DNA of 64,000 nt, taken from a virus. The position numbers and the translations under genes were made by a program. The notes below the pieces were generated by a model, which saw nothing but the letters and a program-made list of their open reading frames with translations, had not been told where the DNA came from and ran no database searches. The stretch is taken from positions 1 through 64,000 of the IMG/VR virus record IMGVR_UViG_3300030060_004838; one strand, given 5' to 3'. The number at the start of each line of letters is the position of its first letter. Within the stretch, counting starts at the first letter, position 1. This document shows positions 23,173 to 47,519 of the stretch, one piece after another.

Positions 23173-23276
23173 AACATCATCTCTTTCTCGGATAGTTTGG
23201 TTTATTTGGTCTTTTCTTTTCCGACTTTTGGCTCGGTTCTCCTTTTTTTCTTTTTATTGGTTTTCGTATTTTATTT

Positions 23277-23405
23277 TTATTGGGCAATCGTATCACCATT
23301 CATCGCTTCAGGTTTGCCATGTTTAACCCAACATTCTTTACAAAACCCAAAAGGATAATTAGCATCTGTATTATAACAACGACCACAATAAACAAATTCT
23401 TTCAT
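23277..23405 (-). CDS. Zinc-ribbon mini-protein (42 aa)
   Basis: Starts with ATG overlapping the previous stop (ATGA at 23402-23405). The product has two C-x2-C pairs, 'YCGRCYNTD' and 'FCKECWVKHG', the classic rubredoxin-knuckle zinc ribbon, with only a short tail. Many such mini zinc proteins occur in the rightward module; this is the only free-standing one in the late operon. Function unknown. Confidence 0.7.
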   Translation of the reverse strand: MKEFVYCGRCYNTDANYPFGFCKECWVKHGKPEAMNGDTIAQ

Positions 23406-23893
23406 TTTCTACGCTTCCTTTTCTCTTTAGTCTTTCTCTTTTGTGCGTTGATGAAAGTCCTATAAATACCTGCCGCAGATTTTTTACCCATTTCTCTTGC
23501 CCTTTGTTCCATAGCAATAGCCGCTTGAGTTTTATGTGCATGAGTTCTACTACTTCTTTTTATTTTTGCTACTGAGCGTTTTGCATCTTTTACAGTTTTA
23601 AATCCTAAACCATGTATTGTTCCTTTTGGATTTTCATCTGTATATAAATCTGAATGTTTTTTAGAATTAGCGGGTTGCCCTTTCTTTCTTGGAATTCTTT
23701 TTGCTTTAAGAATATCTTTCCATGTAATAACATCTTCAGATTTTTTATAACCTGAAGCATATGCAGCAGCCGCTTGGCGTTCAGCATCTTTACGATTTTT
23801 ATAGACTTTACCACGCTTACCCCATTTATAGCCGCCTTTCACTTTTCTTATTGGTATATCAACCCCTCCTTTTGAACCAACCATGAAGGCCAT
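23402..23893 (-). CDS. Basic late protein with internal tag (163 aa)
   Basis: Three parts: residues ~15-50 'KGGYKWGKRGKVYKNRKDAERQAAAAYASGYK', a short domain common in phage and giant-virus proteins; residues ~55-66 'ITWKDILKAKRIP', an internal copy of the operon tag; and a C-terminal domain 'HSDLYTDENPKGTIHGL...KRSSRTHAHKTQAAIAMEQRA' also widespread in phages, uncharacterised. The tail is nearly all K/R. The extreme basicity suggests DNA contact inside the head. An alternative start is the in-frame ATG at 23884. Confidence 0.8.
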   Translation of the reverse strand: MAFMVGSKGGVDIPIRKVKGGYKWGKRGKVYKNRKDAERQAAAAYASGYKKSEDVITWKDILKAKRIPRKKGQPANSKKHSDLYTDENPKGTIHGLGFKTVKDAKRSVAKIKRSSRTHAHKTQAAIAMEQRAREMGKKSAAGIYRTFINAQKRKTKEKRKRRK

Positions 23894-24872
23894 ACTTTTC
23901 TTCTAAACTAAAAGTTCCTTTTCTTCTTTTCTTTTTCTTTCCTCTTTTACCTGCTCGTCTTTTGTAAGTTTTACAGGCTGAACAAGTAGGTCTGCATCTT
24001 CTCTTTCTTCCTTTAGATGCATCTTTTCTTCCACAAGGTTTCGGACCACCTTTATCATTACAAGTTCCGCAAGCAATCCAACCTTTGAATATTTTTTCTT
24101 CCCATGACTTTTTAATATCGCTATCTAAATAAGCATCAGCAATCATTATTCCTATTTCTTCACCTGCTTCTATATCACTTGGATAATGACTTCCCATAAT
24201 TACTCTTGATAATGCTATACCTTCAGCCATATTAAATAATTCATCTTCTTTTTCAGGGTGTTCTTCAGCAAGCATTTTTGCTAAAGCATATGCTTCAATT
24301 GCATGACCACTCGGAAATGCTGGTGTATCATCAGTATCTGTTACAGATTTAATTTTATCTGAAATTTCATAAGGTCTTGGTCTTTTGTATTTCATTTTTA
24401 ATTGCATTGTATAAATATCTACATCTTTAATGAATTGCTCATAATCAATTAAATTAGCCCCTACTATATCTAACATCATTTCATTATTATTTTGGTCTAA
24501 ATCATCTTGAATATCTTTGTCCATTTCATACTTTTCCATTATGTTAAGGACTTCAGATATTTCACTTTCGTTAGAAGGAAAATCTAATTCAGGAAATTTT
24601 ACCTCAAAGGAGGGTTTGCTATTTAGTAATTTTTTTTTACTGTCTGAAAGTTCTTTCATCCATTTAGATTCTGCCTTTTTAACAGAATTACCCCAATTTT
24701 TAGCACCTTTTTTTCTACATTGTACTAATGCGCCACTTGCATATGCCGAAGGCCATTTTTTATATCTTCTTCTAACTTTGTAATAACAGGCATCTTGTTT
24801 TTTACCTGATTTTTGCGTCTTACGCCTACGAAGTTTTTTCTTCTTCGCTTTCAAAGTTTCTTCCCAAGACAT
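23859..24872 (-). CDS. Tagged PAP2-type phosphatase with DUF5872-like N-terminal domain (337 aa)
   Basis: MSWEETLKAKKKK is the tag. Residues ~25-65 ('ACYYKVRRRYKKWPSAYASG' and 'ALVQCRKKGAKNWG') match a small viral domain I recall as DUF5872. Residues ~150-240 contain all three PAP2/acid-phosphatase motifs: 'KYKRPRPYE', 'PSGHAIEAYA' and 'SRVIMGSHYPSDIEAG', so the catalytic histidines are present. The tail (~260-337) is Cys- and Lys/Arg-rich. PAP2 enzymes remove phosphate from lipids or small molecules; with no TM helices this is a soluble form. Whether it acts on host lipids at entry is unknown. Confidence 0.85.
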   Translation of the reverse strand: MSWEETLKAKKKKLRRRKTQKSGKKQDACYYKVRRRYKKWPSAYASGALVQCRKKGAKNWGNSVKKAESKWMKELSDSKKKLLNSKPSFEVKFPELDFPSNESEISEVLNIMEKYEMDKDIQDDLDQNNNEMMLDIVGANLIDYEQFIKDVDIYTMQLKMKYKRPRPYEISDKIKSVTDTDDTPAFPSGHAIEAYALAKMLAEEHPEKEDELFNMAEGIALSRVIMGSHYPSDIEAGEEIGIMIADAYLDSDIKKSWEEKIFKGWIACGTCNDKGGPKPCGRKDASKGRKRRCRPTCSACKTYKRRAGKRGKKKKRRKGTFSLEEKYGLHGWFKRRG

Positions 24873-24876
24873 TAAA

Positions 24877-25197
24877 TCACCACAATTTTTTACACGCTAA
24901 ACATTTAGGGGTTGTAATTCTACCTTTACATTGGTCGCAATTATGTCTTGCTCTAAAATTTCTTCTTCTCTTTCTACTTCTATGAGTTCCGCCACCACGA
25001 TTCTTTCCTGAACGCTTGTAATTACCATACCCTTTAGCACCCGCATGAATCTTTTTACCTTCATGCGTTAGCATCATAATTTTTTTACCTGCTCTATCAG
25101 AAGGATAAACACGGCCTACTCTCATATCCTCTTTTTTCTTGGGCTTGCGCTTTTTTGTTTTGCGCTTTTTTCTTTTAAGAATATCCTCCCAACCCAA
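24877..25197 (-). CDS. Tagged very basic zinc-finger protein (106 aa)
   Basis: TTG start (25197) after GGAGGAATAAA gives MGWEDILKRKKRKTKKRKPKKK, the tag followed by a long K/R tract. The body, 'GKKIHAGAKGYGNYKRSGKN' with 'RNFRARHNCDQCKGRITTPKCLACKKLW', resembles a small family in phages and large DNA viruses (GxxGxxxY...RRxxFxARH...ACKxLW), with C-x2-C...C-x2-C zinc ligands. Probably binds nucleic acid in the virion. Confidence 0.8.
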   Translation of the reverse strand: MGWEDILKRKKRKTKKRKPKKKEDMRVGRVYPSDRAGKKIMMLTHEGKKIHAGAKGYGNYKRSGKNRGGGTHRSRKRRRNFRARHNCDQCKGRITTPKCLACKKLW

Positions 25198-25199
25198 GT

Positions 25200-25451
25200 T
25201 TATTCCTCCTTTAAATAATAATCTCCATGTTCATGTTCAGCCAAATAATCTTTATGGTCTAAAGCATCACTAATAACATACTTCAAATATACTTCTTCAA
25301 AACCTTCCAATTTTTTTCCTGCTTCGATAAAGTTTTTCATTCCAGCGGCACCGCCTTCATCTTTTAAAACTTTTTTAATAAATTTTTCATAGACTTTATA
25401 TTTTTTATTTTCAACGGCCTTTAGTTTTGCCTTTAAAATTTCTTCCCACAT
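25200..25451 (-). CDS. Small tagged protein (83 aa)
   Basis: From ATG 25451: MWEEILKAKLKAVENKKYKVYEK, the tag at the extreme N-terminus, then a helical protein ending in an acidic/histidine stretch 'LAEHEHGDYYLKEE'. No family recognised. Located in a run of five small tagged genes (23.4-25.8 kb). Confidence 0.8.
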   Translation of the reverse strand: MWEEILKAKLKAVENKKYKVYEKFIKKVLKDEGGAAGMKNFIEAGKKLEGFEEVYLKYVISDALDHKDYLAEHEHGDYYLKEE

Positions 25452-25456
25452 AGTAA

Positions 25457-25777
25457 TCACATATTATTAATTATATTATCATACATAGACATAATCTCTT
25501 TTGTAACTGTATTCCAATTTACATCATCAAGAGAATATCCATCACCTACAAATCTACGACTCCATTCAGCATCCATATTAACTAAGTTTCTTGCATTACC
25601 CCATGTTCTTTGGAATGAATCTCTAATTGTTTTATAATCAACAGGCATACCTAACCTTTTATTCATAAAAGACATAGTTTCTATATGATAAGGGATAGTA
25701 GTGGCTAAAGATTCTTTCATCATATCTAATAATACCTTAGTGGCATCGTCTTCTTTTCTAAGAATATTATTCCACAT
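25457..25777 (-). CDS. Small tagged protein (106 aa)
   Basis: MWNNILRKEDDATK: tag with K replaced by R. The rest is an alpha-helical globular protein ('LLDMMKESLATTIPYHIETMSFMNKRLG', 'WNTVTKEIMSMYDNIINN'). The start overlaps the end of the membrane surface protein gene. No family recognised. Confidence 0.8.
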   Translation of the reverse strand: MWNNILRKEDDATKVLLDMMKESLATTIPYHIETMSFMNKRLGMPVDYKTIRDSFQRTWGNARNLVNMDAEWSRRFVGDGYSLDDVNWNTVTKEIMSMYDNIINNM

Positions 25778-26525
25778 CTTCTTCCCTCGCTTCTAATTCG
25801 ATATTATACCAAATAATTTCGTCTATTACTATGTTATCATCATTTATTAAATAAACATATGCATCATAACTGCCATTAGTAAAACTACCTAAAGACATAT
25901 TTCTATATTCAGCATCTCCATTATAAACATCCCATACATCTATTGAATAGTTATAAGGTTCTTCGTATGTTCCATTAGCATCATATACTAAAAATTGTAC
26001 TTCTACCTGTTGTACTTCATCACAATTAACATCAACATCATATGTAAATTCTAAAGATGTATTTGCAATTTTATCTAAGTAATAATCATAGAATAAAGGT
26101 TCACATTCTTCATAAGGTTCACATGAACCATCATCTACATTTGCTTCAGGGTCATAGTTTTCAGCAGCATCATTTGTACAACCCCAAATCATTTCATCAT
26201 ATTCATTACCTTCATCATCTTCCCAAAACCATTCATCGTCATCTCCATTACCTGCGGGAGTAAGGTCAATAATACCTGATAATTCTAAACCACTTGTTGA
26301 TAGTAGAATGAGTATTGGTATTAGGGCGGTTAATAATTTATGAGTTTTATTTGCCATTTCTGTTGCCCTATCAATTGCTGAAGTATTTTCTTTAATAGCA
26401 TTAGAATTATTTAATTTACCATCGTCAAGTAAATCAGCAATAACATCTCCTTTTGAACGACCTGTTAATTTAGCAATCTCATCAGCATTTTCTAAGGAAG
26501 TCTGTATATCAGGGGTATCACTCAT
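25767..26525 (-). CDS. Membrane-anchored surface protein with DDGSC motif (252 aa)
   Basis: ATG at 26525 follows GGAGTGTTAAAA. Residues 1-63 are helical, residues ~64-88 are hydrophobic ('LLTALIPILILLSTSGLEL'), and the C-terminal ~160 residues are very acidic and cysteine-containing. Residues ~115-140 read GCTNDAAENY-DPEANVDDGSC, a motif frequent in secreted proteins of marine bacteria and archaea. The rest is beta-rich ('EVQQVEVQFLVYDANGTY', 'GSYDAYVYLINDDN') with N-x-S/T sites. A likely exposed domain on virion or infected cell; receptor binding is a guess. Confidence 0.75.
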   Translation of the reverse strand: MSDTPDIQTSLENADEIAKLTGRSKGDVIADLLDDGKLNNSNAIKENTSAIDRATEMANKTHKLLTALIPILILLSTSGLELSGIIDLTPAGNGDDDEWFWEDDEGNEYDEMIWGCTNDAAENYDPEANVDDGSCEPYEECEPLFYDYYLDKIANTSLEFTYDVDVNCDEVQQVEVQFLVYDANGTYEEPYNYSIDVWDVYNGDAEYRNMSLGSFTNGSYDAYVYLINDDNIVIDEIIWYNIELEAREEDVE

Positions 26526-27006
26526 TTTTAACACTCCATAGATTTTTCCAAAGTTTATGTTGTTTATAATTTTCTTGTAAATATTGTAATATTTCTTTTT
26601 TACTTGGCGAGTTAAATTTCATACTTTCTGTAATATTATTATATATCATTTCAAATGGTGTATCTTTAGATACGAGATTATCAACCATTGTTTTCCAATT
26701 AGATTTTATGATACTTTTTTTAATTAATCTATATTCTTTAGTTGGTCTACTACTTCTACCCGTAGTAGTTTCTTTAGTAGTTTCTCTACCTTCAGCCCTA
26801 CCTTGTCTAACTAATTTATCTAATACCATTCTTAATTTTAAATTACTAAATATACCTGACATTTTACCTCCATGTCGGGTTTTTAGATTACCTAATACTT
26901 CATCAACAGAATAAAATCTTTCTTCATCTATCCCATATTTTTCAACATAATTTAATTTAGTTGGGGAAAGACCTTTGCCACCTTTTAATATATGTAGCCA
27001 ATTCAT
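26518..27006 (-). CDS. Tagged winged-helix-like protein (162 aa)
   Basis: MNWLHILKGGKGLSPTK is the tag. Residues ~30-95 look like a winged helix ('FYSVDEVLGNLKTRHGGKMSG' then 'LKLRMVLDKLVRQGRAEGRET' and 'TKEYRLIKKS'). A W-rich C-terminal segment contains 'SNWKTMVDNLV'. Could bind DNA in the virion or regulate late genes. Overlaps the surface protein gene by eight bases. Confidence 0.75.
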   Translation of the reverse strand: MNWLHILKGGKGLSPTKLNYVEKYGIDEERFYSVDEVLGNLKTRHGGKMSGIFSNLKLRMVLDKLVRQGRAEGRETTKETTTGRSSRPTKEYRLIKKSIIKSNWKTMVDNLVSKDTPFEMIYNNITESMKFNSPSKKEILQYLQENYKQHKLWKNLWSVKNE

Positions 27007-27048
27007 AGTATTCCCTAAAAAGAAATAAAATAAAAAAACTATTTAAAT

Positions 27049-28347
27049 TTAACGAATACTATCAGGGAAAGTACTTGTGGGTGTATCTTCATAAACAACA
27101 CTTATATTTCCAAATTCTATTTTTATCCTATCAATGCATTGTGTTATTTTTTGCTTTAAATTTTCTTTAAATTCTGCCCATTTTTTATCATCAAACTTCA
27201 ATTTATAATCTTCTTTATAAGTTAAGTTATGTTTTCTCCAATCAAGATAATGATATGGATTATAAGATGCTGGATTCATACCCGTTCTATTCATAACTAT
27301 TTCTATTCCTAAATCATGACCTGTTTCTGAATGAACTTCAGTCATCAATACAAATTGTATAAGCATATCATTACTTCTCATTTTCCCCTGAATAGAAATT
27401 ATTTCCTCTACTGCATAGTGTAGGCCGGTTGTATAATTTTCTGAAAAGTATCTTATTTTTGCTGTTTCTATAAAATGACACCAATCAGAAACAGAAATGT
27501 TATTAAAATATTCAGTATTTCTCCACCATGCAACATAATTTACCTTTTTTCCTGTAATATATTTACTTAATTCCCCTAACTGTAACAACGCTGACCCTAT
27601 TCTAAATTTACAATCGTCATCCTCATCGTCTTTTTCAGGTAATGGAGTCTTTTTAGTTTTAACATTCTGTCTACCAATTTCTACTTGTGATTTTTTTATA
27701 AGTCCAGGAAAAATATTATCACAAGTTTCCCAAGCAAATGAAGGTAATCCATAATTTTTCATAGTTGGACTACCTATTGCTTTAGACCATTCTTTAAATG
27801 CCTTTACCCAACGATTATATGTTTCACACATAGACTTTATTGCTGGTCTTCCACCAACTTTAGGGTTATATCCATCCCATCTTTCATAAGGAATTGTCTC
27901 TCTCCCTACTTGTACATGTTTTGCCATATAGAAATAATGAACAGTTGCTTCAAAATGCGATATTCCCTGACCCCTATCACCAAATAAACCAAAAGAAAAA
28001 GACAATTGTACCCTTTCTTTACCATTATTTACCTTTCCTTCAACCCATACATATGTAGTAATATGGTCTACAAATGAATTTGCTATATGTTCATCTCCAT
28101 TTACAGTAACTTTCATAGTATCTTTAAATTCACACCAATATTCTTCTTTTGGCATATCAAATCTAACACTATCGAATTGAGGCATATACAAAGTAGCATT
28201 AGAATCCCAAGCCGTCTTTAAATTTAAAAAATCATTAATTAGTTTTTCCCAAAAAGGCCAACATTCTTCAGGCTCATCTTTTTCGGGTAAAGCCCTCCTT
28301 CTTGTTTTGACATTTTGCCTACTAACATTAATTAAATTCTTCTTCAT
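27049..28347 (-). CDS. Two-module late protein with PLPEKD tags (432 aa)
   Basis: Two modules of about 200 residues, each led by the second tag: residues ~8-25 'SRQNVKTRRRALPEKDEPEEC' split here as SRQNVKTRRR / ALPEKD, and residues ~218-245 'GRQNVKTKKTPLPEKDDEDDDC' as GRQNVKTKK / TPLPEKDD. Each module later has an aromatic-W/Y-Cys element ('EEYWCEFKDT', 'VSDWCHFIET') and strand-rich segments ('VQLSFSFGLFGDRG'). The cysteine closing each tag and the WC cysteine could pair. Probably a virion surface or internal modular protein; no family recognised. Confidence 0.85.
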   Translation of the reverse strand: MKKNLINVSRQNVKTRRRALPEKDEPEECWPFWEKLINDFLNLKTAWDSNATLYMPQFDSVRFDMPKEEYWCEFKDTMKVTVNGDEHIANSFVDHITTYVWVEGKVNNGKERVQLSFSFGLFGDRGQGISHFEATVHYFYMAKHVQVGRETIPYERWDGYNPKVGGRPAIKSMCETYNRWVKAFKEWSKAIGSPTMKNYGLPSFAWETCDNIFPGLIKKSQVEIGRQNVKTKKTPLPEKDDEDDDCKFRIGSALLQLGELSKYITGKKVNYVAWWRNTEYFNNISVSDWCHFIETAKIRYFSENYTTGLHYAVEEIISIQGKMRSNDMLIQFVLMTEVHSETGHDLGIEIVMNRTGMNPASYNPYHYLDWRKHNLTYKEDYKLKFDDKKWAEFKENLKQKITQCIDRIKIEFGNISVVYEDTPTSTFPDSIR

Positions 28348-30911
28348 TTATTCCACCACATTACTTCAGCAGGTATAATTTCATAATTATCCAACATATT
28401 TTCTACTGCTATGTCACATATATACTTATCTTTTATAGTACCTTCATAGTAATCATCATATAATGTTGCAACAAAACCTATCATACTTTTTTGACTTGAA
28501 TCATGACTATCCATAAAATTGTTTCTCATAGAAGCACTTGTAAATTGACAAGCAAGAACATAATCCTGTCCTTTATATTCAAAGGGGTATTGTTTATCAA
28601 CATAAGTTATTATGATTGAACCTGTTGTAAAAGTTTGTTCACCTGATACTACTTGATTAATCGCCTCTATCATTTTACAACAACAATACTCTTTTAACTG
28701 CCCATCTATTATTTTAAAATCTTCATATTTTAAATCAATAGTAGTAGAAGAATTAGCAACTTTAGCATCTAACAATATTTTCTTAAGTAATACTGCTTTT
28801 CTAAAAGCAATATTTTCCCACCTTGCTACTTCATCTCTACAATCTGATTTTTCTTTTTCAGGTAATGCCTTCCTACGAGTTCTTACATTTTGACGGCCTG
28901 TTTGTATTTGGCTCTTTTTGATAGGAGAACCTAATATTGAATTCCATTGACTTAGAACACTATCTAAATTTAATTCGCTTAGTATCATTTTCATGTGGTC
29001 TTTTTGTTGTACATATAGTTCATTTTCATATGCGAAGCCATAACCCCAACTTACTCTAATAATCCATTTTCCTTTTTCATCATCACCGTCTAACATAAAA
29101 TGACCTATGGTTTGAGTTTTAGGGTTTGTTGCGGCAGCCCTAATACCATAATCATAGCCTGTTCCACCTTTTTCCTTAGTATCTTTTTTATAATATTCTG
29201 TAATACCATTAAAATTATCATCGGGTTTTTCTGACCATAATTCTATTGCTTTACATGCAGACCATTCAGTTATATTTTCAGGACTATCAACTGTTACAAC
29301 AAATTTTGTACTATAAGTAAAAGGTACTGATAAAGTATATTTTGTTGTATTATCATAATCTGAATATTCTGTCTTTAAATCTATCTCCGTGACTTTGTTA
29401 TTATATTTTGAAAATCTGTGATTAGAACCATAAACGGGAGGGTCGTTTAAATTAATATCATATACCAATTGTTTTAATATAGTACCAATAATATCTCTTA
29501 AACTTTCAACATAATCAGCCAATCTTAAAAGTTTAGGTCTACATTCTTCTTCTTCCTTTTCGGGTAGTGGTTTTCTAATAATTTTAGTGTCTTGTCTACC
29601 TTGCGTTCTCAAATCCGCTTTAGTAATAGAGCCTCCATATTCACCTCCCCTATACCAAAGTTTATTTTTTCTAACTTCATCATTCATTTTAATTAAATTT
29701 TCTTGATATTTGGTCATGTAATTAGACTTATTGGGTATTTCTACATCATAATCTCTCTCTAACATACTTAACCATGCAAATAATGTATCAGCATGATGTA
29801 CTAAACCATCTTCATAATAATCCACATTTTCAGTAGATGCGTAACTTGCAATTGAATCTTCTCCAAAAGTATGATAAAGTTCACCATCGTTCAACCAATT
29901 TCTTTTATCAATAAAAGCATGTGCTCTATATATTATTACGCCTTCTCCATCTTTTAATGCCCACTCATGTTTGCAAGCAAAAGTAATGGTAAAATCTTTC
30001 ATTTCTAAATTCATTGTAAATGGAACAGTATTTCCAGCAGTTAAAATTCTTGGCCTCATAATTCCTACTTTATCTTTGTAATTAATATTATTACACCAAA
30101 ATTGATTATCTTTTTTTGATTCAGCACTTATTACATTAAACCTATACTTATCTTTAAATTCCCTACCATAAAATTCTTCTACTATTTTATGTATTTTAGG
30201 ATAACACCTTTCATCATCCTTTTCGGGTAGAGGGGTTCTTTTAGTTTTTACATTTTGCTTAGGTACAGTAATTTGATTCTTTGATATATCACCATCACCT
30301 ACCATGTCATAAAGTATTCTTTGTGCTTGCGTTAAATCTCCTGAACTGTTTTTTATTTTTGTATTAAAGGGTTTCATCTGTTCTAATTTATCAGCGAAAT
30401 TTAAACAGTTTTTACTTGTTTCAAATAATTTTTCTACATACCCTTTAGTAAAAACATTAGGTTCTACTTCCCAATTTATCATTACTGTTCCTAACATATG
30501 TGAAGAATAACCTTCAAAATCTATTTCTGCATACTGCCAAACTCTCCATTTATTAAACCTTTTAGATATATTCCAAGATAGATAAAGTTGTACATTATCG
30601 GTTAAAAAAATATAATACCTAACACTAAATATATCAGAGTCATCTTTAGTATCAGGATGAATTATTAAATTATTATTTCTATCCTTAACCATTTCACACC
30701 AATCTTCATTTGAGAATTTAGAAAGCCAATTACTATCTCTTGCATGTCTTACAGTAGGTCTTTGTATTTCGTTACAATCAGCCCATGCTTGAAATATATC
30801 ATCTATAATTTTATAGCAATCAGGGTCTTCTTTTTCAGGAAGTGGGCTTCTTCTTGTCTTTACATTCTGTTTAGGAATAGTAATTTGATTCTTCAGAACA
30901 TCCTCCCACAT
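28344..30911 (-). CDS. Four-module late protein with repeated tags (855 aa)
   Basis: First gene of the main late run. N-terminus MWEDVLKNQI is the W-x-x-x-L-K tag fused to the second tag. Second-tag copies lie at about residues 8-32, 206-235, 430-459 and 662-688: 'PKQNVKTRRSPLPEKED', 'PKQNVKTKRTPLPEKDD', 'GRQDTKIIRKPLPEKEE', 'GRQNVRTRRKALPEKEK', each ending in a cysteine. Each is preceded by [IL]-x-K-[KNA]-x-[QD]-[IL] that echoes the N-terminal tag. Modules are strand-rich and weakly alike ('NEDWCEMV', 'NQFWCNNI'). This looks like a concatenation of tagged single-module proteins such as that at 19930-20694. Structural or cargo role inferred. Confidence 0.85.
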   Translation of the reverse strand: MWEDVLKNQITIPKQNVKTRRSPLPEKEDPDCYKIIDDIFQAWADCNEIQRPTVRHARDSNWLSKFSNEDWCEMVKDRNNNLIIHPDTKDDSDIFSVRYYIFLTDNVQLYLSWNISKRFNKWRVWQYAEIDFEGYSSHMLGTVMINWEVEPNVFTKGYVEKLFETSKNCLNFADKLEQMKPFNTKIKNSSGDLTQAQRILYDMVGDGDISKNQITVPKQNVKTKRTPLPEKDDERCYPKIHKIVEEFYGREFKDKYRFNVISAESKKDNQFWCNNINYKDKVGIMRPRILTAGNTVPFTMNLEMKDFTITFACKHEWALKDGEGVIIYRAHAFIDKRNWLNDGELYHTFGEDSIASYASTENVDYYEDGLVHHADTLFAWLSMLERDYDVEIPNKSNYMTKYQENLIKMNDEVRKNKLWYRGGEYGGSITKADLRTQGRQDTKIIRKPLPEKEEEECRPKLLRLADYVESLRDIIGTILKQLVYDINLNDPPVYGSNHRFSKYNNKVTEIDLKTEYSDYDNTTKYTLSVPFTYSTKFVVTVDSPENITEWSACKAIELWSEKPDDNFNGITEYYKKDTKEKGGTGYDYGIRAAATNPKTQTIGHFMLDGDDEKGKWIIRVSWGYGFAYENELYVQQKDHMKMILSELNLDSVLSQWNSILGSPIKKSQIQTGRQNVRTRRKALPEKEKSDCRDEVARWENIAFRKAVLLKKILLDAKVANSSTTIDLKYEDFKIIDGQLKEYCCCKMIEAINQVVSGEQTFTTGSIIITYVDKQYPFEYKGQDYVLACQFTSASMRNNFMDSHDSSQKSMIGFVATLYDDYYEGTIKDKYICDIAVENMLDNYEIIPAEVMWWNK

Positions 30912-31083: not shown

Positions 31084-31446
31084 TTAATTGTACATATTAA
31101 AATTAGAATCGTCATCTTTCTTTGATTTTGACATCATTTCTTTCATTTGTTTAACAACATCCTTTTCAAACTGTGAATTTGTATCACTTTCTTCATGTAT
31201 ATCTGCAAAATAGTTAATTTTCTTGTTATATTCTCGTATTATACTAACAAATTCCTCACGCAAGTCTTCATAAAACTGTTGTATCTGTTCTTTAAATTTA
31301 TCAGGTACAGGTGCATGTTTAGAATAGAATTGATAGAAATCATGCCAATTAGCGAAATGATTCTCGAGGTTTTTCATGATATTTTCTAAGTCTTTGTTAG
31401 ATTTGTCTTCTTTTTCGTTATTGTTAAAGTAAAAGTTGAATACCAT
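31084..31446 (-). CDS. Hypothetical leftward protein, acidic/helical (120 aa)
   Basis: Begins MVFNFYFNNNEKEDKS, followed by helical charged sequence ('NIMKNLENHFANWHDFYQFYSKH', 'FKEQIQQFYEDLREEFVSIIREY') and an acidic tail. No tag and no family. It sits between the control region and the 855-aa gene with 172 bases of AT-rich DNA after its stop, so it may be a separate transcript and is the first leftward gene of the late side. Confidence 0.75.
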   Translation of the reverse strand: MVFNFYFNNNEKEDKSNKDLENIMKNLENHFANWHDFYQFYSKHAPVPDKFKEQIQQFYEDLREEFVSIIREYNKKINYFADIHEESDTNSQFEKDVVKQMKEMMSKSKKDDDSNFNMYN

Positions 31447-31668: not shown

Positions 31669-31678
31669 ACCATATGGA
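31669..31678. repeat. ACCATATGG palindrome, copy 1
   Basis: ACCATATGGA; eight of its bases form the perfect palindrome CCATATGG. First of nine copies restricted, as far as I can see, to 31.67-35.85 kb. Confidence 0.85.
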
Positions 31679-31715
31679 TATAGAATGAATCTGAAACTAA
31701 AAAGAACCCTCCGCC

Positions 31716-31736
31716 ATGAGAGATGATGACGAATGA
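31716..31736 (+). other. Micro-ORF MRDDDE
   Basis: ATG-AGA-GAT-GAT-GAC-GAA-TGA: a six-residue frame ending DDDE, like three other micro-ORFs in this region. No Shine-Dalgarno sequence precedes this one, so it is the weakest member. Confidence 0.35.
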
Positions 31737-31749
31737 ACCTGCACACAGA

Positions 31750-31759
31750 ACCATATGGA
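31750..31759. repeat. ACCATATGG palindrome, copy 2
   Basis: ACCATATGGA. The GGAT that ends it can pair with ATCC about 18 bases further on, as the GGT arms of other copies pair with downstream ACC. Confidence 0.85.
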
Positions 31760-31817
31760 TTGAAACTTTGTGGCATCCTTAGTAATAGAACGAACACCTA
31801 TTATATGGTGAATTGTA

Positions 31818-32060
31818 ATGGTAAAACAACAATGCAAACTAACAGGCAAGATGGTAGAACGCAAAGAGATTAACCAAAATGGTTATTCAAAACTGCATTA
31901 TAGCGAGTATCAGAAAATGAGAAACTACGCTAAGAAGCAATTGAATCAAACATTTGGTATCGCTGATTATAGAAAAGTCATGGGCTTTGAAGTAGTTAGT
32001 CGCAAATCTCTATCAGAAGAATTGAAAACAAAAGTGAGAGTGTATTTCCATGACGAATGA
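31818..32060 (+). CDS. Small basic rightward protein (80 aa)
   Basis: MVKQQCKLTGKMVERKEINQNGYSKLHYSEYQKMRNYAKKQLNQ: highly basic and helical. GGTGAATTGTA precedes the ATG. It ends 'VYFHDE', and its stop overlaps the next start (ATGA). No family recognised; size, charge and location next to the palindromes suggest a DNA- or RNA-binding regulator. Confidence 0.7.
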   Translation: MVKQQCKLTGKMVERKEINQNGYSKLHYSEYQKMRNYAKKQLNQTFGIADYRKVMGFEVVSRKSLSEELKTKVRVYFHDE

Positions 32061-32266
32061 AGGACTTTAGTAAATTAACATTTGATGCTATGATTTCAGC
32101 ATTAATGAATGTAGATGACCAATTTCAGCAATTTGATGACATTTCTATTAATGTCAAGCAAGGCGGCATTCAATTAAGAATGAAGAAGAATTGGAAGGGC
32201 GTTTCTATGAGTTTGAAAAACGAGGAACGACTAAGAAGGCATGAAGAAAGCATGTCGGAATACTGA
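32057..32266 (+). CDS. Small rightward protein (69 aa)
   Basis: Translationally coupled (ATGA) to the 80-aa gene. MKDFSKLTFDAMISALMNVDDQFQQFDDISINVKQGGIQLRMKKNWKG: amphipathic helix followed by a strand-like basic segment. No family recognised. A terminator-like hairpin follows 27 bases after the stop. Confidence 0.7.
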   Translation: MKDFSKLTFDAMISALMNVDDQFQQFDDISINVKQGGIQLRMKKNWKGVSMSLKNEERLRRHEESMSEY

Positions 32267-32292
32267 TTAAAATCAGGTAAGTTTGGAAAATT

Positions 32293-32337
32293 GAGGGATT
32301 TTGGGGCTTTTCGGAGTCCTGAAATCTCTCTTTTTTT
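32293..32337 (+). terminator. Hairpin plus T-run terminator
   Basis: GAGGGATTT (32293-32301) pairs with AAATCTCTC (32322-32330) over nine pairs with one G-T, followed directly by seven T residues. It closes the rightward pair 31818-32266. Confidence 0.65.
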
Positions 32338-32375
32338 AGGGTGCGTCATTTCCACAAATTTACAATTTAATACTT

Positions 32376-32385
32376 ACCATATGGT
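32376..32385. repeat. ACCATATGGT palindrome, copy 3
   Basis: Perfect 10-bp palindrome that begins hairpin unit A. Confidence 0.9.
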
Positions 32386-32423
32386 AGGCGATAGCACATT
32401 CTACCGCAGGAGGGATAATAAGA

Positions 32424-32444
32424 ATGTTTGATTGTGATGAGTGA
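32424..32444 (+). other. Micro-ORF MFDCDE
   Basis: ATG-TTT-GAT-TGT-GAT-GAG-TGA preceded nine bases upstream by AGGAGGG (32408-32414), a near-ideal Shine-Dalgarno. The start codon touches the left arm of a helix whose partner is 32457-32465. Confidence 0.55.
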
Positions 32445-32464
32445 TGTTAGTTTATTTTCTTATT

Positions 32465-32474
32465 ACCATATGGT
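32465..32474. repeat. ACCATATGGT palindrome, copy 4
   Basis: Perfect palindrome at the joint of units A and B; its first A ends the right arm of unit A, and its GGT begins the GGTTC/GAACC helix of unit B. Confidence 0.9.
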
Positions 32475-32515
32475 TCATGCGTTAGCATATGATGAACCGC
32501 AGGGGGGATAACAGA

Positions 32516-32539
32516 ATGTTCTTTGACGATGACGAGTGA
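32516..32539 (+). other. Micro-ORF MFFDDDE
   Basis: ATG-TTC-TTT-GAC-GAT-GAC-GAG-TGA, eight bases after AGGGGGG (32501-32507). The first codons lie in the left arm of a nine-pair helix (32515-32523 with 32551-32559). Confidence 0.55.
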
Positions 32540-32569
32540 TTACATCAGTTAAGAACATTTTAATCTGTT

Positions 32570-32579
32570 ACCATATGGT
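32570..32579. repeat. ACCATATGGT palindrome, copy 5
   Basis: Perfect palindrome closing unit B. Confidence 0.9.
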
Positions 32580-32612
32580 AATGCTTTGCAATTACCTTAG
32601 ATTTTTCAAAAA

Positions 32613-32650
32613 TGGTATTTTTTATTTTCCTGCATTGGAAAAAAATACCA
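32613..32650. terminator. Long A/T hairpin between convergent genes
   Basis: TGGTATTTTTT (32613-32623) is the exact reverse complement of AAAAAATACCA (32640-32650), with TTTTCC/GGAAAA pairing inside. It lies between rightward units and the end of the leftward gene at 32673, and with T-runs on both strands could terminate in both directions. Confidence 0.6.
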
Positions 32651-32672
32651 AAAAACCAAATATATCAAGATA

Positions 32673-32855
32673 CTAAAAATGGAAAGAAACTCCCCAATAA
32701 TGTTCTATTGCGCCTCTAAATTTATCTTCATTAAATCTCTCATTATCCTCTTTGAAAAATTGACAAAACGAATTTATCGTATATTCATCTATTTTCAAAT
32801 CTCCAAATAAACGAGCCACTATTTCATAATGTCTTTGTTGAAATTTAGGATTCAT
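32673..32855 (-). CDS. Small leftward protein (60 aa)
   Basis: MNPKFQQRHYEIVARLFGDLKIDEYTINSFCQFFKEDNERFNEDKFRGAIEHYW: a compact helical sequence with many aromatic residues. Last gene of the four-gene leftward operon 33590-32673; overlaps the preceding gene by 11 bases. No family recognised. Confidence 0.7.
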   Translation of the reverse strand: MNPKFQQRHYEIVARLFGDLKIDEYTINSFCQFFKEDNERFNEDKFRGAIEHYWGVSFHF

Positions 32856-33096
32856 TTAAATTCCACCCCCTATAAAATGGATAATCAGGTAAGTGTCTAC
32901 AAATTTGATTAAATGCTACACAATACATATCTAATGTTTCATAAAATGATGGGTGGTCATCTTCTTCATAAATTTCTTCCATTTGATGAATTAGGAATCT
33001 AACAGTCATAAGTATATCTGTAATTTCATCATTTGTGATATTATCAGCATACCATTGTTTTATCATCTTCAATCTTTTTTCTGTAAATTTTACCAT
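32845..33096 (-). CDS. Small leftward protein (83 aa)
   Basis: From ATG 33096 (GAGG upstream) MVKFTEKRLKMIKQWYADNITNDEITDILMTVRFLIHQMEEIYEEDD. Helical, aromatic-rich; ends in 'CRHLPDYPFYRGWNLNES'. No family recognised. The longer frame from 33111 would overlap the upstream gene by 11 bases. Confidence 0.65.
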   Translation of the reverse strand: MVKFTEKRLKMIKQWYADNITNDEITDILMTVRFLIHQMEEIYEEDDHPSFYETLDMYCVAFNQICRHLPDYPFYRGWNLNES

Positions 33097-33100
33097 AATA

Positions 33101-33379
33101 TCAAGCCTCAAATGTAAATATTTTTCTAATATTTTCTAATTCTTCTTTTACAGGTTTTGCACAACATTCACAATCCCAATCTTCAAGATTACTTAGAATA
33201 TATAGGATTTGTGTAGAAACTCCTTCACTTCCATATTCCATCCATGCTCTATCCATAGCCAAAAAATATGATATTGCATATTCTCGGTATGTTGGTTTTT
33301 TATCGTTATAGCAATTCTTTGCACTTATTACTTTGAATCTTAGGCTGTATAATTTTCTAAATATTTCTTCCGTTGGCAT
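33101..33379 (-). CDS. Small leftward protein with Cys cluster (92 aa)
   Basis: ATG 33379 after GGAGATGAGTAAA gives MPTEEIFRKLYSLRFKVISAKNCYNDKKPTYREYAISYFLAMDRAW. The C-terminal part has 'DWDCECCAKPVKEEL', three clustered cysteines that might bind zinc. Helical. No family recognised. Confidence 0.65.
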   Translation of the reverse strand: MPTEEIFRKLYSLRFKVISAKNCYNDKKPTYREYAISYFLAMDRAWMEYGSEGVSTQILYILSNLEDWDCECCAKPVKEELENIRKIFTFEA

Positions 33380-33380
33380 T

Positions 33381-33590
33381 TTACTCATCTCCATTAACTT
33401 CATTTGTTTTCTCAATTACTGCTTGAATTAGTGCTTCCATATTTTCTTTCACTTCATCAATTGTATCACCTTGCACTCTTGCGCTTTCACAAATCCAATT
33501 TTTATATCGGTCTTGTTTTAGTTTAACAACAAAATTTTTCTGCACAGGCTCGCTTTTTTCTTCTTCTAAATTCTTTTTCCAGAATGGCAT
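33381..33590 (-). CDS. HicB-like small protein (69 aa)
   Basis: 'KNFVVKLKQDRYKNWICESARVQGDTIDEVKENMEALIQAVIEKTNE' follows the HicB antitoxin pattern: a strand pair, then 'GDT.eEa..N...ai......'. HicB proteins are partial RNase H folds that neutralise HicA and repress their operon. No HicA gene is adjacent; a HicA-like gene lies at 39421. First gene of the leftward operon; GTGGTGAAAAAAT precedes the ATG. Confidence 0.55.
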   Translation of the reverse strand: MPFWKKNLEEEKSEPVQKNFVVKLKQDRYKNWICESARVQGDTIDEVKENMEALIQAVIEKTNEVNGDE

Positions 33591-33863
33591 ATTTTTTCAC
33601 CACATAATTATATTTTGAACGGTTTATGGTTCGTGCTTCAAAGTAGCCTTACCATATGGTTCTGCTTTGAAGAACCTTAAAAAATTAAAAAAAATAAAAT
33701 TTTAAAAAATATTTTTTTGGTGAAGGAAAAAATAATTAAAAACCTTGATTTTTTTTGACAAGAAAAATTCTAAAAACTTGTGGCAATTTTTTGTGTGATT
33801 GCCAAATCAATATCTACGGGCTTCTCAAAATATTTGATGTATCTAAAGATTCAATCTTCATCT
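33591..33863. other. AT-rich spacer with one palindrome
   Basis: No gene. Contains palindrome copy 6 and, at 33680-33730, runs of A and T typical of promoter or unwinding DNA. It serves as upstream region of the leftward HicB-like operon. Confidence 0.5.
33651..33660. repeat. ACCATATGGT palindrome, copy 6, with flanking arms
   Basis: Flanked by CTTCAAAG (33636-33643) and CTTTGAAG (33665-33672), an eight-base inverted repeat centred on the palindrome; GGTTC (33658-33662) can also pair with GAACC (33672-33676), as in unit B. Confidence 0.85.
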
Positions 33864-34499
33864 TCAATTAGAAGATTCATCAGATTCACCTTCGTCATTA
33901 TCAGATTCTGTTGCATTTTCTTCTGATGGTGGTGGCGCAATTGTCATTCCATCTTCAAGAGAAAAGTTTCCATCCCAACGACCATCATTGAAATATTTTG
34001 TAAATCTTTGATTTACTGCTACTCCACGACCATCTCCGAAATCTAAACCGTTCTCAAATGGTGAACCACCAACCTCTTTATTTCTATCAGAAATTACAGA
34101 TGTCATTTGGATAATCGGATTTGAATTCCAAAATTCTGCGTATGCTTCTGCAACCAATTTCTTTAGAGTTTTCAAACTTGCTTGAGCGTGTGCTGGCAAA
34201 TTTGATTCTTTTCCAATTGAAACAGGCCAATCCATAGCCAATTTTCCATCTGTTTTTTCTACTGTCCAATCTCGACCTTCAATGAGGATTTGATTCCATA
34301 AATTCTTCCGCTTTTCTGCATTTCTGTTTCCTCTACGGATATTCATGTTAATCAATTCAACAGCATCAATAATATCATCTGAAGAATTCAAAAATTCTTG
34401 ATTACCTTCAAGGCTCAAGAAATCCTCAATTCTTCCAATTCTCTTATTCCATGCTTCATCTGTCATTGACAAATCTTTTTCTTTCTTTTCTTTCGGCAT
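33864..34499 (-). CDS. Control-region protein, paralogue of the 34656 gene (211 aa)
   Basis: MPKEKKEKDLSMTDEAWNKRIGRIEDFLSLE, then 'AVELINMNIRRGNRNAEKRK' (about residues 46-65), which aligns with 'AVNTIKRGRKFANKRKRC' of the divergent gene at 34656. 'AYAEFWNSNPI' aligns with 'PNEDYWNALPI', and 'DGRGVAVNQRFTKYFNDGRW' with 'DGKSFAKRMNESLVKKWTVH'. Acidic, S-rich tail (EENATESDNDEGESDESS). A basic helix flanked by shared motifs suggests a DNA-binding regulator or origin protein. The stop is followed by palindrome 6. Confidence 0.75.
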   Translation of the reverse strand: MPKEKKEKDLSMTDEAWNKRIGRIEDFLSLEGNQEFLNSSDDIIDAVELINMNIRRGNRNAEKRKNLWNQILIEGRDWTVEKTDGKLAMDWPVSIGKESNLPAHAQASLKTLKKLVAEAYAEFWNSNPIIQMTSVISDRNKEVGGSPFENGLDFGDGRGVAVNQRFTKYFNDGRWDGNFSLEDGMTIAPPPSEENATESDNDEGESDESSN

Positions 34500-34588
34500 A
34501 TTTATTTCTCCTTATTTTTTTTCTGTCGCCAATATTTTTTGGCGTAGAATATCATCATTTTTTATTATTCAAGGTAATTCAAAGTATT

Positions 34589-34598
34589 ACCATATGGT
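34589..34598. repeat. ACCATATGGT palindrome, copy 7, with flanking arms
   Basis: Between the divergent paralogues. CAAAGT on the left and ACTTTG on the right give a six-base inverted repeat around the palindrome, and GGTT pairs with AACC 14 bases on. Confidence 0.9.
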
Positions 34599-34655
34599 TG
34601 CAACTTTGTGAAAACCCTATACCTGAAACCCTCTTTTATTATGTGGTGAAAACCA

Positions 34656-35135
34656 ATGAGTAAAGAAAAATACGAAACTGATGAGGGCTATGAAGCATTT
34701 GTAGCACCTCTTGAAGAATATATGAAGAAGAACAAAGCCAAAGATGCTGAAATGACAGATGCCTATGAGTATGCTGTGAACACCATCAAAAGAGGTCGAA
34801 AGTTTGCTAACAAAAGAAAAAGATGTTTTGACAGTCTGTATGATGAGTGGAACCATCTTAATTTTGAAGGTTGGCCTTTGAAGAAGTTAGATGATGAAAC
34901 CACTAAGGAAATTCAAAAGATGGCTGATGATATGGACACACCAAATGAAGATTATTGGAATGCCCTACCTATCAAACCTACATTTAAGGTCAAAGGTAAG
35001 GAATACATTGATGCTGATGGCAAATCCTTTGCTAAGAGGATGAATGAATCACTTGTGAAGAAATGGACTGTTCACGCCAAAGAGAACGGTTCACTTTGGA
35101 AGTCCCAAGATGATATACCCACCCGAGAGGCTTGA
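34656..35135 (+). CDS. Control-region protein, paralogue of the 33864 gene (159 aa)
   Basis: MSKEKYETDEGYEAFVAPLEEYMKKNK; the shared basic helix 'TIKRGRKFANKRKRCFDSLYDEW' lies at about residues 43-65, followed by 'NEDYWNALPIKPTFKV' and a short C-terminus. GGTGAAAACC precedes the ATG. It is shorter than its partner, lacking the acidic tail. The pair is transcribed outward from the palindrome at 34589, so they may be autoregulated through it. Micro-ORF MFDDDE follows three bases after the stop. Confidence 0.8.
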   Translation: MSKEKYETDEGYEAFVAPLEEYMKKNKAKDAEMTDAYEYAVNTIKRGRKFANKRKRCFDSLYDEWNHLNFEGWPLKKLDDETTKEIQKMADDMDTPNEDYWNALPIKPTFKVKGKEYIDADGKSFAKRMNESLVKKWTVHAKENGSLWKSQDDIPTREA

Positions 35136-35137
35136 AT

Positions 35138-35158
35138 ATGTTTGACGATGATGAATGA
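35138..35158 (+). other. Micro-ORF MFDDDE
   Basis: ATG-TTT-GAC-GAT-GAT-GAA-TGA, seven bases after GAGAGG (35125-35130). Directly follows the stop of the 159-aa gene and would be co-translated with it. Confidence 0.5.
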
Positions 35159-35204
35159 TTGACAAAAATTGACCCCTAATTTTGCCCATACCCCATGCTG
35201 TTTT

Positions 35205-35242
35205 GGTGATTCAGCACAAAAAAAATCACCACCCTTCGGGGT
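35205..35242 (+). terminator. Two adjacent hairpins
   Basis: GGTGATT (35205-35211) pairs with AATCACC (35224-35230), immediately followed by ACCCTTCGGGGT, a stem capped by a TTCG tetraloop. Then TTTC. Probably terminates or stabilises the transcript of the 159-aa gene and its micro-ORF. Confidence 0.5.
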
Positions 35243-35290
35243 TTCTTACCACTATTCAAAGAATCGTTTTTACAATGTTTATTGTTAGTA

Positions 35291-35300
35291 ACCATATGGT
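35291..35300. repeat. ACCATATGGT palindrome, copy 8
   Basis: Perfect palindrome, preceded by an extra A and followed by T (AACCATATGGTT, 12-bp palindrome). Confidence 0.9.
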
Positions 35301-35840
35301 TGTAATTTTTACACCCTGAAAAAAATAAAAAAAATAAAAAAGGTGGTAGAGAAATCATTTAAGATTTTTTTAAAATATCGGGGATGATATTTATGCATGA
35401 TAATATGATACAACAAACAAAGAACCAATTAAGAAACTCTACCATGAGTTATTTGTTGTAAAAGGGTGTGGGCAGGATTAGGTCGGTTAAACCATAACTT
35501 ACCTGCAAATTTTCACGGAAACACCTGCTTTTATTCTTGATTTGCAAATAAAATCGGCCGCTACTTCTAACTTCCCCACTTGAGCGTTTGTTCTCAAATG
35601 TTCCCACAGACAATTCGCTAAAACTGTTCACGCTATTAAATCGTTCACAAATGCAGCCTTTGATTATTACGCCACTCCTTCTCGATGGAAAGATTAATTG
35701 CATTTATCCGCTAAGAAAATCTCGGGAGGAATACCTTAAAGTGTTCAATCTCTTTTTCAGTCACCACAATATCTTGACCCGCTAAAGCCAAGATGTAGAA
35801 TATGATTGATTTATAGCCGTAAGGTCATCACAAAGAGATT

Positions 35841-35850
35841 ACCATATGGT
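35841..35850. repeat. ACCATATGGT palindrome, copy 9
   Basis: Last copy in the window, 29 bases before a second palindrome CTTCATATGAAG (35879-35890) that shares the CATATG core. Confidence 0.9.
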
Positions 35851-36446: not shown

Positions 36447-36740
36447 ATGAAAAAGACTGAAGTTCTGGTGGACAGCATGGAAACAAAAAAGAAGATAAAA
36501 GAAACAATGGATGAAATTAGGGATTTCCTAATCCAAAAGAATGAACAATATGGCGATTCTGTGATGAACCCAATTAGGGTTTTTTCAAAAGCAGGAATTG
36601 ATGAAGGGTTAAGAATTAGAATTGATGACAAACTCAATAGATTAATGCAAGGTAATGATAGCATGGAATCTGATGAGGATGTTGTTAAAGATTTGATAGG
36701 TTATTTGACCCTACTATTAATTCAAATTAGGGAGGAATAA
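36447..36740 (+). CDS. DUF1599/Nmad1-like protein (97 aa)
   Basis: 'LIQKNEQYGDSVMNPIRVFSK...IRIDDKLNRLM...DEDVVKDLIGYLTLLLIQI' matches the KN..YGdS...r...R.DDKL.R.....D...DLiGYL pattern of the family named DUF1599 or nucleotide-modification-associated domain 1. Members are found beside phage DNA-modification genes; the activity is not established. First gene of the rightward operon with no clear ribosome site, so its mRNA may be nearly leaderless. Confidence 0.75.
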   Translation: MKKTEVLVDSMETKKKIKETMDEIRDFLIQKNEQYGDSVMNPIRVFSKAGIDEGLRIRIDDKLNRLMQGNDSMESDEDVVKDLIGYLTLLLIQIREE

Positions 36741-45342: not shown

Positions 45343-45913
45343 TTTACCTGTTTGTTCAGTTTGTGGTTGTATTCAGGCATATAGAATATATGAGGTAAGT
45401 GATATACCTAAAAATGAAAAAACATTTAGCACAGACTTAATGATGCTTATGAATGAGTTTGATATAGAAGATAAAGATGAAGTTATCAAAAATGATAAAT
45501 ATATTTCTTATACTAATATATATTATACTTATGATTTAGCGGAGAGGGCTTGTGCTATCTTATACTATACTATGAGGGATTTAAATAAACCTGCTATCAT
45601 GTTGGATTATTGTAAATTTTTGGGATGCAAAACAAGTAGAGTAAGTAGACTTGCAAAAAGAATAGCAAGACATTATTCAAATAGTGGAGTGTTTGGTATA
45701 AATGATATTGACGAGTTTTTGGATAATATGGAAATCAATAGTAAAGAAATTAGTGAAGCGTGTAAAGCGTGGAATGAGCAACAAACCTTGACAAGAGGAA
45801 TAATTGCGGCATATGTATATGAACACACAACATATACTCAAAAACAAGTGTGTGAAAAATTTGGAGTTAGTTTGCCAAGATTAAAAAGAAACTTAAGGAA
45901 AGTGAGAAAATGA
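45290..45913 (+). CDS. TFB-like transcription initiation factor (207 aa)
   Basis: N-terminal zinc ribbon from 'CVNC' (3-6) and 'CSVCGC' (22-27), then a B-finger/linker-like stretch and a helical cyclin-type region ('YTYDLAERACAILYYTMRDLNKPAIMLDYCKFL', 'AACAWNEQQ...'), ending 'IIAAYVYEHTTYTQKQVCEKFGVSLPRLKRNLRKV', a close match to the TFIIB/TFB pattern AA..Y......t..ev....gVs...i. It is shorter than host TFB (~300 residues). It probably redirects archaeal RNA polymerase to viral promoters. The start inside the previous gene is kept because it retains the first zinc pair. Confidence 0.8.
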   Translation: MPCVNCQAKHLNLNKEINLPVCSVCGCIQAYRIYEVSDIPKNEKTFSTDLMMLMNEFDIEDKDEVIKNDKYISYTNIYYTYDLAERACAILYYTMRDLNKPAIMLDYCKFLGCKTSRVSRLAKRIARHYSNSGVFGINDIDEFLDNMEINSKEISEACKAWNEQQTLTRGIIAAYVYEHTTYTQKQVCEKFGVSLPRLKRNLRKVRK

Positions 45914-47325: not shown

Positions 47326-47519
47326 TGACAGAATGGAAATTAGGAATAGGAACAGGAAATGCAAAATGTAGAGTATGTGGTAAGCCAATTAAAGAAGGCC
47401 AACCAATGATTAAAATAATTAATTCAAGGATTAGTGGACAGGTTCATTCTAATCCCTTTGAATGTGGAAAAGAAAGACAAGAACAATTAGGATTTGAATA
47501 TGTAGGAGAGGAAGTATAA
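47325..47519 (+). CDS. PARP-type-like zinc-finger protein (64 aa)
   Basis: ATG 47325 overlaps the previous stop (TAATG). MTEWKLGIGTGNAKCRVCGKPIKEGQPMIKII...VHSNPFECGKE: C-x2-C (15-18), then H and C, with the 'AKCRVCGKPI.EG' pattern of PARP-like zinc fingers, which bind nicked DNA. Function here unknown; it precedes the JAMM gene and is coupled to it. Confidence 0.7.
   Translation: MTEWKLGIGTGNAKCRVCGKPIKEGQPMIKIINSRISGQVHSNPFECGKERQEQLGFEYVGEEV

Follow-up and report, generated by a model that had tools for sequence, protein, structure and literature searches.

The 64,000-nucleotide window analyzed here (positions 1 to 64,000 of the virus record IMGVR_UViG_3300030060_004838) contains an array of nine palindromic sites, CCATATGG, with eight intervals between them (31670..35849). 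Comparison with related viral contigs suggests, with a probability that we put at about 0.58, that gene cassettes are joined to one another at these palindromes, which would be exchange junctions that double as transcription boundaries. A preliminary description of this DNA had reported the nine copies and placed them where leftward and rightward modules meet; the coordinates given there are exact, and the array indeed occupies a divergent strand-switch region, with leftward genes to its left and rightward genes to its right. Dinucleotide-preserving shuffles of the window yielded a mean of 0.67 copies and a maximum of three. The palindrome occurs nowhere else in the window, nor in the 32 kb of the 95,975-bp virus record that lie beyond it, so that the array has no counterpart of equal density elsewhere. 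Seven of the nine copies are the perfect 10-mer ACCATATGGT, and those at 31669 and 31750 end in A.

Cassette rearrangement and the structure of the joints

The sites separate small-gene cassettes, among them cassettes with one gene or a tiny open reading frame (ORF). A comparison of the intervals between neighbouring sites in different relatives shows gain, loss, inversion and permutation of whole cassettes, and the breakpoints fall within the 8-10-bp core. The cassette at 33652-34590, which encodes a 211-residue ORFan, is inverted in L014/L040, L019 and L007, and the tiny-ORF cassette at 32466-32571 is inverted together with its neighbour, as a block, in L019 versus L039 (98% and 86% identity). 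In L119 and L120, the flanking cassettes are 96-99% identical, whereas the tiny-ORF cassette between them differs (79%). Empty sites are represented as well: a 96-bp tiny-ORF cassette of L124 is missing from L123, and the joined L124 flanks match L123 at 163 of 194 positions (controls, 16/167 and 19/162); similarly, a 550-bp cassette of the window is missing from L039, which the joined window flanks match at 157 of 191 positions (controls, 18/166 and 11/173). Across 75 homologous half-site pairs with different neighbours (73 once duplicates are removed), the homologous side shows high identity, and on the opposite side identity drops to about 0.3, the background level, within two bases of GGT; the breakpoint therefore lies inside the core, and the core itself sets the resolution because a match at its positions was a requirement. 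The rearranged joints are unlikely to stem from assembly error, given that identical joints turn up in numerous contigs obtained from different samples.

Each copy of the palindrome is the core of a composite site that consists of two half-sites arranged head to head around the invariant CCATATGG. A full half-site is a short hairpin, GGTnnn-loop(CTTTG)-nnnACC, with a variable stem. Read outward from the centre, approximately half of the half-sites carry CTTTG, mostly 4-9 nucleotides after GG, with AATTTG in its place in the GC-richer relatives; many end in ACC, and the preceding bases are complementary to those that follow GGT. The longer inverted arms that had been reported at 33651 (CTTCAAAG/CTTTGAAG) and 34589 (CAAAGT/ACTTTG) are present and belong to this wider pattern of recurrent hairpin half-sites on both sides of the core. 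Stems of at least 5 bp were detected in 103 of 418 halves, compared to about nine in shuffles, and all three variable stem positions pair in 40 of the 149 non-redundant K-type halves (such as GGTTCT-GCTTTGA-AGAACC in the window), the mean and maximum in permuted data being 4.3 and 13. The pair that closes the loop covaries, too (ACTTTGT, 69; GCTTTGC, 32). The covarying half-site stems are the pattern of a folded single-strand site in which structure is conserved over sequence, and we infer that such folding occurs in vivo.

The left and right arms of one site share 77 identical letters of 312, compared to 103.5 +/- 6.8 within a locus, and identity as low as 77 was reached in none of 5,000 permutations. 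Because the arms avoid identity, the constraint falls on two separate local hairpins rather than on a single long palindrome; one long cruciform was rejected on this ground. The central tetramer between two K-type halves is ATAT in 60 of 60 cases, and the 37 hairpins identified in 13 loci (240 kb) all abut the core, with none elsewhere. Wobble pairs are distributed asymmetrically (GU 20, AC 5; 24 and 15.5 in permuted data), which hints that the outward strand is the one that folds and is too small an effect to decide between RNA and DNA.

The half-site motif is present on 134 of 195 gene-start sides and on 103 of 138 gene-end sides. Convergent joints, where there is no promoter, keep it in 16 of 24 halves, and retention amounts to 67% at end/end, 67% at end/start and 77% at start/start joints. 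The sequence that follows ACC differs between the two sides: gene-start sides have (T/C)(T/C)ATA, and gene-end sides have either a sequence of the CCGAAGGG type, which is the reverse complement of the terminator-like hairpin CCCTTCGGG, or an A-rich sequence. On gene-start sides, a TATA-like box directly adjoins the half-site, with the distance from the box to the ATG peaking at 23-26 nucleotides (17 of the 57 cases with both box and ATG); a second group lies at 31-37 nucleotides, most of its members having a Shine-Dalgarno-like element, GGTGA or GGTAA. Gene starts were called mechanically (ORFs of at least 50 codons), and single assignments may be wrong. The two distances are those expected for leaderless and short-leader archaeal promoters.

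Among the 122 unique cassettes of up to 260 bp, a conserved acidic ORF of 6-11 residues behind a Shine-Dalgarno-like motif was found in 31, compared to 0.55 per set in shuffles. The encoded peptides, of which there are several per genome, are of the M-F-x-D-D-D-E type, with MFFDDDE, MYCDDE, VFNDEDE and MKYTSDEDDE as examples. It can be argued that these ORFs are translated because they interchange GAT with GAC and GAA with GAG and use alternative starts including GTG and TTG. Ahead of many of them lies a distinct hairpin, which has a GC(GNNA)GC tip and directly follows the core. A plus-strand candidate at 31716 (MRDDDE) was dropped: its ATG is not conserved in relatives, and it has no Shine-Dalgarno motif. 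The arrays also carry noncoding RNA cassettes: a 384-bp cassette between two CCATATGG sites in one relative (L030:8106-8490) consists largely of a manA RNA (Rfam RF01745, 62.5 bits) and has no obvious gene.

Conservation of the array in a probable marine archaeal virus group

Conservation was assessed in two sets of relatives. A pattern scan for two copies 70-100 bp apart yielded 31 viral contig stretches, many of which hold 5-16 clustered copies; the motif itself served to select this set. The second set was blind to the motif, being chosen solely by the gene at 36447..36740 (plus strand; phrog_1485) to the right of the array. Nearly all of the closest relatives in which this locus reaches the array have 4-16 copies, all on the array side of the gene and none within up to 10 kb on the opposite side; the loci of more distant homologues of the gene lack the motif. 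The 13 near-complete records, those of this virus and of twelve relatives, contain 4-17 copies each, and in those with listed positions, the copies form one array with rare outliers. A cellular origin was considered and rejected, the 21 pattern matches in genome contigs being mostly tandem or chance pairs. Two of these matches were inspected closely. L144 (NZTP01000016, labelled as an Altibacter metagenome-assembled genome) is a magrovirus-like contig with array sites that match the viral locus L027 and is probably a mis-binned virus contig. L138, the Actinarchaeum halophilum plasmid CP071308, has five CCATATGG copies at 569-2664 with the repeated flank TATACGCCATATG.ACATAAGCGTTTCGCATATTG in both orientations; this repeat represents an unrelated archaeal family that shares the same core.

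Magroviruses are uncultured and abundant in the surface ocean. The 95,975-bp record has a GC content of about 31% and divergent modules. Pfam domains identified in the genome include an adenosylcobalamin-type ribonucleotide reductase, two ATP-dependent DNA ligases, a PD-(D/E)XK nuclease, an ERCC4/XPF nuclease, a ThiF protein and a weak JAB match; PCNA-, RFC- and archaeal-type primase-like ORFs were recognized by eye. The DNA polymerase B is nearest to those of haloarchaeal tailed viruses (22-25% identity). Protein searches of the phage collection matched no magrovirus reference genome. Judging from its gene content and organization, the virus resembles a magrovirus, which makes an assignment to this group likely, and it probably infects ocean archaea. 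Magroviruses (order Magrovirales) are described as tailed viruses of Poseidoniales archaea with genomes of 90-110 kb, about 31% GC and a PolB replisome and virion modules on opposite strands (PMC10768690, PMC12999244), a description that these features would fit.

Possible mechanisms and relation to known systems

The core equals its own reverse complement, and two joints of any kind could therefore be connected in either orientation. While the DNA is being replicated, the hairpins on either side would make the core accessible as a folded single strand, and strands would switch or anneal there. The site would also act as a two-sided transcription boundary, so that a moved cassette would bring its own promoter and stay insulated. 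Since none of the known recombinase families was detected, our best guess is that the exchange would be effected by the replication and repair proteins of the virus itself. An ERCC4/XPF-type structure-specific nuclease is encoded in all 13 near-complete genomes; it belongs to the common replication and repair equipment and is at most a candidate.

Several observations weigh against the cassette-joint interpretation. No recognizable CTTTG hairpin is present in 326 of 654 halves, and just five halves in the window, three of the K type and two of the S type, fold well; when single sites are folded as RNA, the long dyad is often preferred to the two hairpins, and the folding z-scores of several sites are weak. 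The evidence is comparative and comes from metagenome contigs rather than from recombination events seen directly, and selection on the core, for instance as a binding site, could alone preserve it at surviving breakpoints. Finally, no tyrosine, serine or Y1 recombinase domain was detected in the 13 near-complete genomes: Phage_integrase (PF00589) is absent from all 13, compared to 14 of 14 positive control genomes, as are Resolvase (PF00239; controls, 10/14), Y1_Tnp (PF01797, the Y1 HUH transposase; 5/14) and the Holliday junction resolvase Hjc (PF01870; 4/14).

This last result also counts against the main rival to exchange by replication and repair proteins, namely a dedicated recombinase that has so far escaped recognition, whether viral or supplied by the host, that would bind the folded stem and the CTTTG loop and cut the CCATATGG core as in integrons. 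The conserved loop and core combined with variable, covarying stems do resemble recognition of structure plus loop, and the exchange is precise to 8-10 bp; nevertheless, Phage_integrase, Resolvase and Y1_Tnp domains were not found in these genomes although the controls responded, attC boxes are absent, and we consider this scenario unlikely. Integron cassette arrays, which are known also in phages as clusters of attC sites (CALINs; PMC9892861), are similarly composed of small gene cassettes that are joined at structured sites and precisely gained and lost. However, neither IntI nor any other tyrosine recombinase was detected here, a difference tempered by the fact that CALINs may lack an integrase in cis, and the attC boxes are effectively absent, with GTTRRRY near the core in 8 of 656 halves and both boxes (GTTRRRY and RYYYAAC) in one. 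Furthermore, integron cassettes are promoterless, point mostly in one direction and have one attC hairpin, whereas here promoter boxes are found on gene-start sides, cassettes occur in both orientations and each site comprises two small hairpins. Shufflons and other multiple-inversion systems work by inversion of segments that are flanked by repeated short sites. The viral arrays share such inversion but also undergo insertion, deletion and permutation and have a fully palindromic core, and no shufflon-type recombinase was detected in the 13 near-complete genomes. An IS200/IS605-like hairpin element would come with a Y1 HUH transposase, of which no domain was found in the same 13 genomes.

Closer in function are the promoter early stem-loops (PeSLs) of T4-type phages, which are mobile cassettes (Arbiol 2010; Comeau 2014; as cited by PMC4503421). 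As with PeSLs, the sites described here are intergenic units of promoter and stem-loop or terminator located between small ORFans and tied to modular shuffling. It could accordingly be proposed that the sites are kept solely as composite terminator-hairpin-promoter units and that shuffling is a by-product of ordinary homologous recombination or of selection at intergenic joints; promoter boxes and terminators do adjoin the sites, and T4-type phages shuffle genes at similar motifs (PMC4503421). We find this improbable considering that the sequence shared at breakpoints is just 8-10 bp long and ends sharply, that hairpins are about equally common at convergent joints without promoters, and that a promoter needs neither avoidance of identity between arms nor an invariant core. 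PeSLs also differ in having a sigma-70-type early promoter in a T4-related phage, whereas the sites in question have archaeal-type TATA boxes and no relation to T4, the PolB of this virus being closest to those of haloarchaeal tailed viruses. Their symmetric palindromic core is invariant, the two hairpins stand head to head and share a conserved loop, cassettes occur in both orientations, and breakpoints are confined to 8-10 bp. PeSLs are nearest in function and integron arrays nearest in appearance, and the sites belong to neither. Repetitive extragenic palindromes and bacterial interspersed mosaic elements (REP/BIME; for example, PMC3733652) are likewise short, intergenic, multi-copy and sometimes paired, but they are spread genome-wide, whereas the sites described here are confined to one array in which they mark cassette breakpoints.

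The preliminary description had taken the palindromes for operators of a master regulator or origin iterons. The linkage to promoters that the first of these proposals implies holds: many start codons have the palindromic core about 50-65 bp upstream of them, and the promoter-linked sites may have a regulatory role because the TATA-like box adjoins the half-site at a sharply defined distance from the ATG. Operators of a virus-encoded regulator, with a dimer on the core controlling the cassette promoters, are nonetheless insufficient as an explanation because convergent joints without promoters keep the motif. It is retained equally often at end/end and end/start sites and not much more often at start/start sites, rather than being placed at promoters only as in a transcription-factor operator array; hairpins are found on gene-end sides as well; covarying stems are not expected of operators; and the breakpoints at the core, along with cassette gain, loss and inversion, would be left unexplained. 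We therefore regard this proposal as highly improbable. Origin iterons at the divergent genome centre are hardly credible: although the region lies at the strand switch and at the minimum of cumulative GC skew, the skew tracks gene orientation even within the array and offers no independent evidence of an origin, and the sites, unlike iterons, are single palindromes 80-1,100 bp apart, with genes between them, that spread over several kilobases and vary in number from 4 to 17 per genome.

Literature searches, which covered the magrovirus literature incompletely, returned no description of such sites, and it is likely, albeit not certain, that the cassette joints constitute a previously undescribed gene-shuffling device. 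A more ambitious proposition, which is possible but which we hold only tentatively and would rather bet against, is that of a site-specific cassette system of an entirely new category. Its orientation-free recombination site, in which paired single-strand hairpins flank a palindromic 8-bp core, would be used by an unrecognized recombinase or by structure-templated strand switching, and arrays of gene and micro-ORF cassettes would be built in this way across a major group of marine archaeal viruses. If exchange is indeed active, orientation-free and independent of known recombinases, it would represent a mechanism of cassette shuffling distinct from that of integrons, and the site might serve as a tool for reordering DNA parts. 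The defined joint (CCATATGG with GGT...CTTTG...ACC half-sites) makes cassette arrays countable in any metagenome and delimits accessory genes and promoter positions, including those of proteins and tiny peptides that no gene finder reports.

Layout of the array in the window and additional observations

The gene at the left border of the array (31084..31446, minus strand) is conserved, with 40-92% identity in six relatives. Site 1 (ACCATATGGA, 31669..31678) forms the left edge, its left half being GGTTCTACTTTGAAGGTTCC on the minus strand; site 2 (31750..31759), with the same sequence, lies 67 bp upstream of the ORF at 31818 and has a right half that carries AACTTTGT followed by CCTTAGTAA. The cassette between sites 2 and 3 (31818..32266, plus strand) encodes two small ORFans of 80 and 69 residues. 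Sites 3 to 9 all have the sequence ACCATATGGT. The right half of site 3 (32376..32385) is an S-type hairpin, GGTAG-GC(GATA)GC-ACATT-CTACC (32383..32405, plus strand), followed by GCAGGAGG, that runs into the tiny ORF MFDCDE* (32424..32444, plus strand), with a Shine-Dalgarno-like GGAGG upstream. Site 4 (32465..32474) is likewise accompanied by an S-type hairpin, GGTTCAT-GC(GTTA)GC-ATATG-ATGAACC (32472..32498, plus strand), and by the tiny ORF MFFDDDE* (32516..32539, plus strand). At site 5 (32570..32579), the K-type hairpin GGTAAT-GCTTTGCA-ATTACC (32577..32596, plus strand) is followed by TTAGATTTTT, and the cassette between sites 5 and 6 (32673..33590, minus strand) contains four small ORFs of 60, 88, 104 and 69 residues.

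Site 6 (33651..33660) has the K-type hairpin GGTTCT-GCTTTGA-AGAACC (33658..33676, plus strand). The gene at 33864..34499 (minus strand) encodes the 211-residue protein of the invertible cassette, which belongs to an ORFan family; its structural model is of low confidence (predicted local distance difference test score of 67) and has no fold match. Site 7 (34589..34598) lies between this gene and the divergent gene at 34656..35135 (plus strand), which encodes a 159-residue ORFan; the left half of the site is the K-type hairpin GGTAAT-ACTTTGA-ATTACC (34573..34591, minus strand), and at the outer edge of a half-site, 36 nucleotides before the ATG of the gene at 34656, is the promoter-like box ACCCTATACC (34614..34623, plus strand). 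A possible tiny ORF, MFDDDE* (35138..35158, plus strand), was read by eye right after the stop codon of the latter gene. Site 8 (35291..35300) is the left end of the 550-bp cassette that is missing from L039, and site 9 (35841..35850) is the right edge of the array. The array proteins have no convincing Pfam match, and Rfam at gathering thresholds detected nothing in the array, the only hit in the window being a tRNA outside it.

Outside the array, the two ATP-dependent DNA ligases of the single virus genome (window 48741-50228, plus strand; L006:14114-15973, minus strand) differ from each other. The gene for a ThiF/E1-like protein (Pfam E-value 4e-16) is located near that for the weak JAB-protease match (45910-46464 and 47519-47962, plus strand), a neighbourhood reminiscent of ubiquitin-like conjugation and deconjugation pairs. 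Many ORFs of the leftward module, namely those at 13862, 19147, 23172, 24872, 25197, 25777, 27006 and 30911, all on the minus strand, share an N-terminus of the form M-x-W-x-x-I-L-K (for example, MNWRNILLKE, MWEDVLKN, MGWEDILKR and MSWEETLK), which is perhaps a common targeting or assembly signal. Several proteins of the same module (19930-30911, minus strand) contain a motif of the RQNVKTRRxPLPEK type, which is repeated inside the 855-residue ORF at 28344-30911.

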